Shown in pieces: positions 26,563 to 29,673 of a stretch of DNA of 64,000 nucleotides. A model generated the notes under the pieces. The model ran no database searches. It saw only the letters and a program-made list of their open reading frames with translations, and was not told the DNA's origin. The stretch comes from Zoogloea dura (GTDB lineage Bacteria; Pseudomonadota; Gammaproteobacteria; Burkholderiales; Rhodocyclaceae): assembly GCF_012927165.1 (NCBI RefSeq), contig NZ_JABBGA010000007.1:62001-126000 (forward strand), written 5' to 3'. Position numbers and translations under genes: made by a program. Positions within the stretch are counted from its first letter, which is position 1. The number at the start of each line of letters is the position of its first letter.

Positions 26563-26584
26563 GCGCGGATCAGTCGATCCGCGC
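26563..26584. terminator. Hairpin between convergent genes
   Basis: Perfect 9-bp stem GCGCGGATC / GATCCGCGC with loop AGTC, between the adenine deaminase stop and the convergent gene, overlapping the latter's last codons. A plausible bidirectional terminator without a T-run. Confidence 0.5.
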
Positions 26585-27130
26585 CACCCCGAAATGGCGG
26601 CGCCAGGAGAAGTGGCGTTGTACATCGGCGGGTTCGGAGAGCCTCGGCAGGCGTAGCCGGAAGGCGGGGAAGAGGCTGATGCGCCAGACCGTTCCACCGG
26701 CCGGGAAACAGAACACGATGTGGTTGGGGTGGGACAGCACCAGCGGGCCGGGCGGCTGGCAGGCCCCGGGCGTTGTCAGGCTTGCCGAATCGAGGAAGCG
26801 GAGTTCGCTATCGACAAGCTGCAGGTGCATCCGGCCCTGCGCCTCGTCTGCATCGCCCATCAGCAGCAGGAAATGCCCGCGCCAGGCGAGCGCCGCGTAC
26901 AGGGCTGTTCCAGGTACGCGGGTGCGCACCCCGGTGGTGGCGTGCCACACGTCTGTCATCGTCCGGGCCCCTGGAGTGGGCGGCGGACAGGGGGCGCTGC
27001 GGATCTCGGGTGCCAGCCGCAGGACGGGATCTTCCAGGTGAGCCTCCTGCAAGGGGATGGGGGGCGGTGCCCGACCGGTCAGGGCCACTCCGGGCGGGGC
27101 AGTGAGGCTCGTGCTTGATGAACGGTTCAT
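26570..27130 (-). CDS. Hypothetical protein, unrecognised
   Basis: A 186-aa open frame that I do not recognise. The N-terminal 60 residues are Ser/Pro-rich and probably disordered (TAPPGVALTGRAPPPIPL). The rest looks like a beta-rich fold with alternating hydrophobics (ALYAALAWRGHFLLLMGD, HIVFCFPAGGTVWRISLFP) and ends with basic and aromatic residues. ATG 27130 is used; a shorter start at about 26960 (MTDVWHATTG) is equally possible. No signal peptide or membrane helix is evident. It lies between the adenine deaminase and the PEP-CTERM fusion, on the opposite strand to both. Function unknown. Confidence 0.55.
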   Translation of the reverse strand: MNRSSSTSLTAPPGVALTGRAPPPIPLQEAHLEDPVLRLAPEIRSAPCPPPTPGARTMTDVWHATTGVRTRVPGTALYAALAWRGHFLLLMGDADEAQGRMHLQLVDSELRFLDSASLTTPGACQPPGPLVLSHPNHIVFCFPAGGTVWRISLFPAFRLRLPRLSEPADVQRHFSWRRHFGVARID

Positions 27131-27435
27131 CGGGGACGGCAGGGCGCTCGGAGTCTTCAGGTTAGTCGAGGCCTCGAAAATACCAAGACCAGGGCAGGCA
27201 TCGGAGCGATCGACAAGGAAAAGCTGTCGGGTAATTTTACAGGCGAAGCGCAAGCGCTGGAGACTGGAGTATGCCAGCCGGATTCATGCCGCGGTAAGCC
27301 CTGCAGCAGGAAACAGTCTTGGAGATTTGTAACTTTTATTCTCCCGTCGGGCATTTTTTATGCTCGCGTGCCTCTGTCGGTCCGGTCAGTCGGGCATCCC
27401 GGCTCCTGCAGTGATGTTCCCGCGTGGAGAGACTC
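27131..27435. other. Gene-free 305-bp region before the PEP-CTERM fusion
   Basis: This divergent gap is less GC-rich than its surroundings, especially 27180-27365. It should hold promoters for both neighbours. I looked for the -24/-12 sigma-54 motif and see no convincing match; no hairpin with a T-run stands out. Confidence 0.4.
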
Positions 27436-29673
27436 ATGAAACGTCAGATCCTGCGTAGCGCAACGACGATGGCGGGCATGCTCGTCGCCCTTTCCCTGGC
27501 GGGCCCGGCCCTGGCCTTGCCAAGCCTCGTCAATGGGGGCTTCGAGTCCGGCCTGAGTGGCTGGAGCACGGCTGATCAGACCGGTAGCGAGGGCACCTTC
27601 TATGTGCAGGGCGGGACCACCAGCCCGACCCTGGGCGAGGCGGTGCCGGCGCCTCCCGAGGGGACCTCCGCGGCCATGAGCGATGGCGGCCTCGGCGGCC
27701 CCGGGAGCCATGTGCTGTACCAGGATTTCGTGGCCAGCGCAGGCAGTGCGAATCTGAGCTTCCAGCTCTTCATCGGCAACCGGGCGGACGCCTTCTACAC
27801 GCCGGCGAGCCTCGACTTTGCCACGCCGACGCTCAACCAGCAGGCCCGGGTGGATATTCTGAAGGCTTCTGCGGACCCGTTCAGCCTGGCTGCCGGCGAT
27901 GTCCTGATGACCCTCTACCAAAGCGTCGCCGGCGATCCGCTGGTGGACGGCTATTCCACCATCGTGGCGGACATCAGCGCGATCCTTGCCGCTCATGATG
28001 GCGAGACCCTGCGCCTGCGCTTTGCCGAGACCGACAACGTGTTCTCCTTCCAGATGGGCGTCGACGACGTGCGCATTGAGGCGAAGGGCGGCGTCCTTCC
28101 CGAGCCGGCGAGCGGGCTCCTGCTGGGTCTGGCATTTTGCGCCATGGCAGTCTGCCGGCGCGGCCGCAGCGGCCTGAAAGCTACCCTGGCTGTAGCGGGG
28201 CTGTTGGCCGGCATGGGCGCGGGGCTGACGGGGCCGGCCCGGGCTGACAGCATTCCGGCCCAACTGCTCGACCCCGCCCTGACGGTGCAGACCGTGGTGA
28301 ACAGCGGGCTCAACCAGCCGATCGGGATCGTGTTCCTTGGCCCCAACGATTTCCTGGTGCCGGAGAAAGCCTCCGGGCAGATCAAGCGGGTCATCAACGG
28401 CGTGGTGCAGCCCGTCCCGGCGCTGGATCTGGCTGTGAACTCCGCTTCCGAGCGGGGTCTCCTCAGTGTGGTCCTGGATCCGGCCTTCCCGACCGTGCCC
28501 TTCGTGTATGTGTTCTGGACCGAAAGCCTGTCCGGGGTCGATTCGACTGCGCTGTCCGACACGCCCTTGCTCGGCAACCGGGTCGACCGCTTTGTGTGGG
28601 GCGGTGCCAGCCTGGTCCTCGACCGGAACCTGCTCAGGCTGAGGGCGCGCCAGACGGACAACGTGGCGACGCCCGGCCATCCGGGCACGGCCAATCCCGC
28701 CGAGCGCGGCAACCACAACGGCGGCGTGATGCGCTTCGGGCCTGACGGCAAGCTGTACGTATTCATGGGCGACCAGGGGCGGCGGGGCTGGATGCAGAAC
28801 CTGGCCAACGGGCCCTTCCTGACGGCCCCCCTCGTCGATGACACTTTTGGTGGGCCCTCACCCGACAACGCGCACCTGGCGGGGGTGATCCTGCGCATGA
28901 ACGGCGACGGCACCACGCCAGCCGACAATCCCTTCTTCGCGACAGGGGCGGCAATGGGCGGTGAGGTGGGGGCCAATCTGCAGAGGATCTTCTCCTATGG
29001 CCACCGCAACGGCTTCGGCATGGCCTTCGATCCCTTGTCCGGCAGTCTGTGGGCCACGGAGAATGCCGATGATGCGTATTCGGAACTCAACCGGGTCGTG
29101 CCCGGCATGAACGGCGGCTGGATCCAGCTGGCCGGGCCGCTGGCGCGGGTGCCGACCTGGAAGAGCATCGAGACCACCCAATTCGGCGGCAGCCTGCAGC
29201 AGGTCCGTTATCCGCCCACCCGGGCGGCCTATTCCGCTGCCCTGGCCCAGGCCCGCATGGTCATGTTGCCGGGGGCTGTCTACAAGGATCCCGAGCTGAG
29301 CTGGCGTTACGAGATCGGTCCGTCCGGGGCGGCCTTTGTGCAGGGCAATGCCCTGGGCACCGCCTATGAGGGGACCTTGTGGATCGGCTCGTCCAGAGCC
29401 TTTGCCCAGGTGGGCGGAACCGGTGGCAGCCTGTACCGGATCCGCCTGACCGCCGACCGCCTGCAAGCCGATCTGAGCGCCGATCCCCGCCTGGCCGACA
29501 AGGTGGCCGACAACCTGTTCAGCGCGAACAAGTTCGACGGCACCGAGAGCGAAACCCTGCTGATCGGCAGGGGCTTCGGCATCACGCCCAGTATCGAGCG
29601 GGGGCCCGATGGGGCGCTGTACGTGGTGTCCCTGTCGGACAACGTCATTTACAGGATCGGTCGGGCGCCCTGA
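27436..29673 (+). CDS. PEP-CTERM domain protein fused to PQQ-dependent sugar dehydrogenase
   Basis: A 745-aa reading frame with two modules. Module 1 (1-246): signal peptide (1-26), a beta-rich region opening with NGGFESGLSGW, and a full PEP-CTERM sorting signal, PEP at 222-224, a hydrophobic helix (227-240) and RRGR (241-244). Module 2 starts at once with another hydrophobic stretch (249-266) ending PARADS, like a second signal peptide, then a soluble-type PQQ sugar/aldose dehydrogenase: ERGLLSVVLDP, RGNHNGGVMRFGPDG (candidate catalytic His), YGHRNGFGMAFDP, ENADDAYSELNRV, NGGWIQL. PEP-CTERM signals are normally at the extreme C-terminus and are cut by exosortase. GGAGAG precedes ATG 27436. 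No stop codon or frameshift separates the modules. Confidence 0.88.
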   Translation: MKRQILRSATTMAGMLVALSLAGPALALPSLVNGGFESGLSGWSTADQTGSEGTFYVQGGTTSPTLGEAVPAPPEGTSAAMSDGGLGGPGSHVLYQDFVASAGSANLSFQLFIGNRADAFYTPASLDFATPTLNQQARVDILKASADPFSLAAGDVLMTLYQSVAGDPLVDGYSTIVADISAILAAHDGETLRLRFAETDNVFSFQMGVDDVRIEAKGGVLPEPASGLLLGLAFCAMAVCRRGRSGLKATLAVAGLLAGMGAGLTGPARADSIPAQLLDPALTVQTVVNSGLNQPIGIVFLGPNDFLVPEKASGQIKRVINGVVQPVPALDLAVNSASERGLLSVVLDPAFPTVPFVYVFWTESLSGVDSTALSDTPLLGNRVDRFVWGGASLVLDRNLLRLRARQTDNVATPGHPGTANPAERGNHNGGVMRFGPDGKLYVFMGDQGRRGWMQNLANGPFLTAPLVDDTFGGPSPDNAHLAGVILRMNGDGTTPADNPFFATGAAMGGEVGANLQRIFSYGHRNGFGMAFDPLSGSLWATENADDAYSELNRVVPGMNGGWIQLAGPLARVPTWKSIETTQFGGSLQQVRYPPTRAAYSAALAQARMVMLPGAVYKDPELSWRYEIGPSGAAFVQGNALGTAYEGTLWIGSSRAFAQVGGTGGSLYRIRLTADRLQADLSADPRLADKVADNLFSANKFDGTESETLLIGRGFGITPSIERGPDGALYVVSLSDNVIYRIGRAP

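Follow-up and report, generated by a model that had tools for sequence, protein, structure and literature searches.

A PEP-CTERM sorting signal inside a protein: a recurring in-frame fusion with a soluble-type PQQ sugar dehydrogenase in Zoogloea dura and other bacteria

What becomes of a PEP-CTERM sorting signal when it lies in the middle of a polypeptide rather than at its end? In the set published by Haft et al. (2006, PMC1569441), the motif is followed by fewer than ten residues in 87% of PEP-CTERM proteins, the median being three. The question is raised by a single open frame of 745 amino acids (27436-29673, plus strand) in the 64,000-nucleotide stretch of Zoogloea dura DNA analysed here (contig NZ_JABBGA010000007.1, positions 62,001 to 126,000; referred to below as the window). 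The encoded protein consists, in order, of a Sec-type signal peptide, an N-terminal (N) domain, a PEP-CTERM signal, a second signal-peptide-like segment and a pyrroloquinoline quinone (PQQ) sugar dehydrogenase. An initial annotation had placed the PEP-CTERM signal at residues 222-244 and the dehydrogenase at residues 273-745 of one frame; these coordinates are correct, and the arrangement is confirmed by the frame itself, the PEP-CTERM anatomy and a match to PF07995. The explanation developed below, to which we give a probability of about one half, is that the members of a conserved exosortase-linked gene pair were joined in frame in this Zoogloea as well as several other lineages, and that exosortase and signal peptidase cleave the resulting polyprotein.

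Recurrence of the fusion and nature of its parts

The initial annotation proposed a search for the same fusion elsewhere, and an in-frame fusion with no intervening stop codon was found in 11 genomes, the window and 10 others. Within Zoogloea these are the window, Zoogloea sp. SB3 (L069) and Z. oleivorans AF21 and Buc (L040, L041). The others are Rubrivivax pictus (L044), G839 (L096), two Thiodictyon loci (L042, and L104 from G1076) and three Methylococcales-like loci (G1677, G1673 and G1674; L113-L115). The G1076 fusion shares its coordinates with the match in plasmid pTs485 of Candidatus Thiodictyon syntrophicum, whose record, titled as a complete sequence, annotates one coding sequence there, WP_236849083.1. 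No further fusion emerged from an order sample, which held a match at 1e-60 in 2 of 399 genomes (one being the window genome), or from a class sample, in which the only match among 369 genomes was the window genome itself.

The concern that a sequencing or assembly artefact hides a stop codon or frameshift, already voiced in the initial annotation, might draw on the state of the window genome (a 5.83-Mb draft in 83 contigs) and on two related loci with a broken reading frame, but it is scarcely credible and can be set aside, because the same stop-free fusion is present in 10 other genomes, including the plasmid record titled complete. In two Zoogloea pairs, moreover, the segment that joins the two domains and the domains on either side of it show similar synonymous divergence (dS). 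One of the broken loci, from a Methylococcaceae metagenome-assembled genome (MAG; L051), is an otherwise fused frame with an in-frame TGA inside the PEP-CTERM helix (L051:2105-2170) and a TTG directly after it. Three relatives are uninterrupted; the stop could reflect an error or a broken gene, or mark a stop-start junction. The other is a Thiodictyon-like locus on a short contig (L106, G1072), where the N part and then the dehydrogenase part are spread over several frames. In G838 (L100, L103) a dehydrogenase relative runs over two frames, with no N match within the 3.7-kb loci. The loci of G1072 and G838 are either decayed copies or assembly errors and were not counted as fused, nor were a dehydrogenase fragment (L089, G341) and a more distant dehydrogenase lacking an N match (L095, G051/G986).

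The same two proteins are widely encoded as neighbouring genes. The main genome-collection scan returned 42 loci, and the N protein adjoins the dehydrogenase in 30 of them. The N part comes first in 11 (5 fused, 1 with the stop, 5 split), whereas in the other 19 the dehydrogenase comes first and N is always a separate frame (L045-L049, L052, L053, L056-L062, L064, L065, L071, L075, L081). Records with reversed pairs are titled Planctomycetota, Acidobacteria, Rokuibacteriota, Verrucomicrobiales, Methylomonas, Massilia, Aquincola and others, and so span several phyla; two further reversed pairs, in G1824 (L121) and G1842 (L119), lie outside the 19. No N match at E 1e-3 was found in the remaining 12 loci, one of which (L063) is on a 4.5-kb contig. 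A family search gave a match at E 1e-30 in 9 of 395 genomes, with three fused, five as two genes and one as a dehydrogenase fragment only. There are six distinct split pairs with N first, G397 (L086) included; L087 and L088 share their N ends with L054 and L055 and were counted once, and G006 is split by a stop codon read in the DNA, although its listed open frame is 786 amino acids. A Shine-Dalgarno sequence was seen by eye before the dehydrogenase ATG in all six split genes.

The N domain (residues 28-220) is modelled by AlphaFold as a jelly roll, with a mean confidence score (pLDDT) of 93.5. Alignment with VIA-align gave Z scores of 12-14.4 to carbohydrate-binding modules (CBM4, CBM16, CBM61 and a porphyran CBM), and also matched MAM domains and cyclases; a sequence-profile search of solved structures returned no CBM for this domain and nothing useful. 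The domain is probably carbohydrate-binding, a function that we infer from the fold; MAM domains and cyclases score like CBMs.

The assignment of the dehydrogenase is based on a match of residues 292-562 to GSDH (PF07995; E 2.8e-36, 125.9 bits, cut-off 25), on a match to the soluble glucose dehydrogenase (s-GDH) structure 1c9u (E 9.6e-19), and on a fold that aligns with solved PQQ sugar dehydrogenases at Z 28-34 (33.6 to 3a9g, 28.4 to 1c9u). The score against TIGR03606, 90.6 bits, is far under the cut-off of 434.55. The catalytic site of s-GDH, which we take to comprise His144, Asp163 and Arg228-Asn229 as well as C-terminal Lys/Arg residues, aligns at NHNGG, GDQGRR and GHRNG in the window protein, with the C-terminal Lys/Arg outside the alignment. 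The His and Arg-Asn are invariant in eight fusions, and the Asp is replaced by Glu in SB3. The window genome contains pqqC, a gene of PQQ synthesis, and PQQ-dependent sugar oxidation is the predicted activity of the dehydrogenase part. The pairing of a carbohydrate-binding-like PEP-CTERM protein with a PQQ sugar dehydrogenase in several phyla suggests sugar oxidation at the exopolysaccharide layer. A literature search by title found no paper on a pair of a PEP-CTERM protein and a PQQ dehydrogenase.

The junction and the origin of the fusion

The DNA of two split congeners gives the clearest view of how the window fusion was made. In these Zoogloea the first gene ends in a PEP-CTERM tail reading ...TRRS or ...TRRR, followed by a stop codon; 77 or 72 bases, which include a Shine-Dalgarno sequence, separate it from the dehydrogenase gene, which starts MKHTRSVSRYRRGRSGLL or ...RNGLL. 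The initial annotation had called the second segment signal-peptide-like. Residues 241-270 do have this character, and in the two congeners the corresponding stretch begins a dehydrogenase that is encoded on its own, from an ATG preceded by a Shine-Dalgarno sequence. In the window and SB3 the junction reads ...CRRGRSGLK..., so that the first Arg pair is joined to the GRSGL of the second gene. About 115-120 bases of the split congeners have no counterpart in the window, namely the final codons of the first gene with its stop, the 72/77-base spacer and the first 10 codons of the second gene. In the window lineage a deletion, with the join at similar Arg codons, has merged the Arg tail of the PEP-CTERM signal and the Arg n-region of the signal peptide downstream. 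Of the earlier proposal that two former genes were joined by loss of a stop codon, the joining is upheld by the split congeners, and simple stop-codon loss is ruled out for this lineage because gene end, spacer and gene start are all missing. The junction is similarly tight in R. pictus, G839 and Z. oleivorans, and a loop of about 25-40 residues separates the two elements in the Thiodictyon and Methylococcales-like fusions.

One tree used the dehydrogenase alone (41 rows), a second N plus dehydrogenase (34 rows), and a third took in three further fusions (37 rows). The fused rows are scattered in all three, and the fused state costs five changes per tree; in the 37-row tree the cost is five without the interrupted row and six if that row counts as unfused. 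The approximately unbiased (AU) test rejected a single clade of fused genes whether it was composed of the four Zoogloea rows (p 0.028 in the first test, with 34 rows, and p 0.019), of six betaproteobacterial rows (p 0.0008) or of the 11 fused rows with the interrupted row (p 9e-5). Therefore fusion, or fusion and fission, has recurred.

The choice between these two histories is less clear-cut. By equal-weight counting on our reading of the 37-row tree, five fusions cost the same as a single ancient one at the root of the N-first clade followed by about four fissions into two genes, and the gammaproteobacterial fusions do look like a single old event. Nevertheless, the split state looks older in the window clade, because similar starts (MKH, then an R-rich GRS), each with a Shine-Dalgarno sequence, are found in G397 and the two split Zoogloea, and the window/SB3 pair is nested among them; junction length and composition also differ among lineages. 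One old fusion with repeated fission is accordingly rather unlikely as a general history, and for the window lineage fusion from a split state is favoured by this comparison. Support within the window clade is moderate (89/90 and 90/83 in the 37-row tree), and G397 is placed differently in the dehydrogenase-only tree.

The hairpin and its predicted processing

Both sorting elements are retained in the fusions. All 11 still have the PxP, Arg residues, both hydrophobic stretches and a signal-peptidase-like site. Hydropathy gave two cores in each of the eight fusions for which it was computed, the first of 15-16 and the second of 13-18 residues, and the cores of L113-L115, judged by eye, are similar. 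At positions -3 to -1 before the mature dehydrogenase, seven of the 11 have ARA, ALA or AQA, the two Thiodictyon have VQA and the two Z. oleivorans GRA; signal peptidase tolerates small residues or Val at -3. By eye and by hydropathy the second element thus has the Arg n-region, hydrophobic core and small -3/-1 residues of a Sec signal peptide, in an internal position. The whole-protein AlphaFold model (mean pLDDT 69.9) does not fix this region. When the positive-inside rule, by which an Arg-rich turn is cytosolic, is applied to the two cores and the Arg turn, the predicted structure is a membrane hairpin with an out-to-in helix, a cytosolic turn and an in-to-out helix, leaving both domains outside the inner membrane.

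The PEP-CTERM element of the window has the right anatomy in the right order (PEP, a 16-residue hydrophobic core at residues 225-240 with a hydropathy of 2.17, then RRGR), and it aligns with the C-terminal PEP-CTERM tails of relatives' separate proteins. Both Pro of the motif are invariant across 27 aligned N proteins. The sequence thus passes by anatomy and homology rather than by score, and appears to be a PEP-CTERM signal that is real in form and weak by score. The exosortase genes that the initial annotation had suggested looking for are represented by one match (PF09721) in the window genome, identified as XrtA by TIGR03109 (275.5 bits against a cut-off of 208), and the gene adjoins that of an exosortase-A-associated ligase. 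The genome encodes 13 other PF07589 proteins, and each of the eight tails examined ends 0-5 residues past the motif. More broadly, a search for exosortase (PF09721) was positive for 29 of 30 genomes with the gene pair, a count that leaves out the genome of L069, versus 3 of 12 genomes without the N protein, two of these matches being weak. The exception is G788, the Bryobacteraceae MAG that contains L045; it has the gene pair and no exosortase match, and may be an incomplete MAG or use another sorting enzyme.

On the preferred explanation, the N domain would be exported by Sec through signal peptide 1. The PEP-CTERM helix would then cross the membrane from outside to inside and the second helix from inside to outside, with the Arg turn in the cytosol, which would carry the dehydrogenase across as well. 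A cut by signal peptidase I after A270 would free the dehydrogenase, and XrtA would cut at the PEP motif, passing the N domain to the surface or exopolysaccharide; what stays in the membrane would be a hairpin of some 45 residues. In this way both products that relatives make from two genes would arise 1:1 from one start. The idea of a cleavable polyprotein with two differently sorted products, put forward in the initial annotation, is in keeping with the two-product anatomy, and such a cleavage, predicted here, is plausible.

Several observations weigh against this explanation, chief among them the low scores of the fused signals. The window PEP-CTERM (residues 222-242) misses the curated cut-off of PF07589 (E 0.0094, 16.5 bits against 20.7) and that of NCBIfam TIGR02595 (12.0 bits against 16). 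In a TIGR02595 scan for which fused rows were trimmed shortly past the Arg cluster (L041 and L113-L115 were outside it), SB3 (21.7) and G839 (L096; 23.9) passed, and the window, L040 (15.5), L044 (14.4), L042 (13.8) and L104 (12.7) did not. The cut-off was thus passed by 2 of 7 fused tails versus 9 of 12 unfused tails (L086, unfused, had no match listed), which hints at weaker signals after fusion and is the main point against an exosortase cut. In-frame ATGs also remain, at Met237 in the window and SB3 and within both helices in Z. oleivorans, and the second signal of the Thiodictyon pair is loosely held (ratio of nonsynonymous to synonymous rates, omega, 0.77). In the literature, exosortase cleavage itself is inferred rather than directly shown, in the portions of it available to us, and in the same portions nothing was found on exosortase substrates with long stretches past the Arg cluster. 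Since the window signal falls below both curated cut-offs, room is left for two other explanations, namely loss of the exosortase cut and internal initiation.

If the exosortase cut has been lost, the fusion would be real and exported, the hairpin would act as an anchor that tethers the N domain outside the inner membrane, and the dehydrogenase would be freed by signal peptidase or remain tethered. The five of seven scanned rows below cut-off, the window included, are what this predicts, and fungal AA12 PQQ dehydrogenases, some of which bear a CBM on the same chain, are among the fold matches. It has also been suggested that the very few long-tailed PEP-CTERM copies are perhaps non-functional (Haft et al. 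2006, PMC1569441), yet here 11 genomes, which do not group as a single clade, retain such a signal, and both presumed cut sites can still be recognised in them. The retention of PxP, core and Arg in every fusion and the passing scores of SB3 and G839 argue against this loss, as does a hairpin that is about as constrained as a stand-alone tail in two Zoogloea pairs; we regard it as an unlikely alternative.

The evidence on constraint comes from pairwise omega values. Between the window and SB3, omega is 0.12 for the N domain, 0.36 from PEP to the cleavage site (0.56 in the PEP helix and 0.22 in the second signal) and 0.15 for the dehydrogenase; the Z. oleivorans pair gives 0.13, 0.47 for the hairpin and 0.08. 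In a split Zoogloea pair used as control, the values are 0.14 for the N domain, 0.35 for the stand-alone PEP-CTERM, 0.21 for the signal peptide and 0.11 for the dehydrogenase. Decay of the hairpin as the cause of its higher omega in Zoogloea is unsupported, because the stand-alone tail evolves alike (in one pair). The Thiodictyon pair has 0.14 in the PEP helix, a near-neutral 1.08 in the loop and 0.41 in the dehydrogenase, and in a Methylococcales-like pair several short segments lack synonymous changes and the loop has 0.12. With small counts in short segments, these values give no clear sign of hairpin decay, and no more than that.

The second alternative is that the dehydrogenase arises mainly from initiation inside the frame, at Met237 in the window, with the two modules made as separate proteins, as before, and the long fusion only a minor product. 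ATG237 is suitably placed for a signal peptide and is shared with SB3, the ATGs of Z. oleivorans fall within the helices, and the three Methylococcales-like fusions (L113-L115) retain GAGGG(G) 6-7 bases before an in-frame ATG. On the other hand, ATG237 lacks the visible Shine-Dalgarno sequence present in all the split genes, R. pictus and G839 have no ATG, GTG or TTG that would leave a normal signal peptide, and where one Thiodictyon fusion (L042) has its ATG, the sister G1076 has an Ile codon and just a GTG far upstream. Internal initiation as the main source of the dehydrogenase is therefore quite improbable.

Returning to the polyprotein, a broader and more tentative proposal, to which we lean slightly less than evenly, is that a C-terminal exosortase signal has repeatedly been welded, by way of an Arg-rich stretch that the two have in common, to the signal peptide encoded downstream. 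The resulting hairpin would be a reusable processing element, from which two membrane proteases give one surface-sorted and one soluble product. If this is true, an exosortase signal need not be C-terminal, and two opposite sorting signals can merge with membrane topology intact. An assayable enzyme directly downstream of the presumed cut site would also offer a natural test of the exosortase reaction.

The fusion resembles several known systems in part. Like exosortase substrates, it has an N-terminal signal peptide, an exported domain, PEP, a hydrophobic helix and an Arg cluster, with XrtA in the genome; unlike them, its signal is internal, with 501 residues after Arg244, and so not at the extreme C-terminus. 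PepA of Aquincola is a PEP-CTERM protein that is processed, and its C-terminus might be cleaved, with further work needed (PMC9850573, as far as accessible). The dehydrogenase shares fold and PQQ-site residues with soluble PQQ sugar dehydrogenases (A. calcoaceticus s-GDH, aldose sugar dehydrogenases; GSDH PF07995) but would reach the envelope by an internal rather than an N-terminal signal peptide. The closest parallel in processing is FbcH (cytochrome b/c1) of Bradyrhizobium, a polyprotein of two exported products with a signal peptidase cut at an internal signal. We know of no C-terminal sorting signal beside the internal signal peptide of FbcH, and the window fusion, unlike FbcH-type polyproteins, would need two membrane proteases; a title search found no paper about FbcH. 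Fungal AA12 PQQ pyranose dehydrogenases (fold rows 6i1q and 6jt5) likewise combine a carbohydrate-binding domain with a PQQ dehydrogenase, but to our knowledge they have no sorting hairpin between the two and are of different origin. Among the open-access papers searched, none was found on PEP-CTERM together with polyprotein, on an internal PEP-CTERM or on PEP-CTERM together with sorbosone, and nothing on such a fusion was found by title or abstract start.

Coordinates and surroundings of the fusion

The features of the frame are collected in Table 1. The cleavage site of signal peptide 1 was assigned by eye.

Table 1. Features of the fused frame, in window coordinates.
Feature	Residues	Position	Strand	Basis
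Signal peptide 1, AxA before L28	1-27	27436..27516	+	Sequence; aligns with N-termini of other fused proteins; resembles those of separate PEP-CTERM proteins
N domain, carbohydrate-binding-module-like beta-sandwich (jelly roll)	28-219	27517..28092	+	AlphaFold model, fold matches
Internal PEP-CTERM, VLPEP (PEP at 28099-28107) and hydrophobic core	220-240	28093..28155	+	PF07589, hydropathy, alignment
Candidate internal start ATG	Met237	28144..28146	+	No Shine-Dalgarno by eye; same ATG in SB3, other fusions without it at that place
Arg turn RRGRSGLK, shared by PEP-CTERM end and signal peptide 2 n-region; fusion point	241-248	28156..28179	+	Junction DNA versus two split congeners
Internal signal peptide 2, hydrophobic core 249-266, signal-peptidase-like site ARA before D271		28180..28245	+	-3 to -1 residues compared over 11 fusions
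Soluble-type PQQ sugar dehydrogenase, including stop codon	271-745	28246..29673	+	PF07995, s-GDH 1c9u, fold match 3a9g

The nearest neighbours with a Pfam match are an adenosine deaminase upstream and a glutathione peroxidase downstream on the opposite strand. An open frame just upstream of the fusion on the opposite strand (26573-27253) had no Pfam match. A GG-N10-GC box that resembles a sigma-54 promoter lies at 27349-27364, and boxes of equal score stand upstream of fused and split Zoogloea genes. The score is the same in three Zoogloea lineages, with p 0.07-0.16 in each, not significant by itself, and the box was hence not used as a promoter assignment.

The surroundings of one of the Thiodictyon fusions are of a different kind. 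On a 485-kb plasmid record (NZ_CP020372.1; L127 10292-13981) the fusion lies near genes annotated as formylmethanofuran dehydrogenase subunits and formylmethanofuran-tetrahydromethanopterin formyltransferase, which seem odd for a purple sulfur bacterium.

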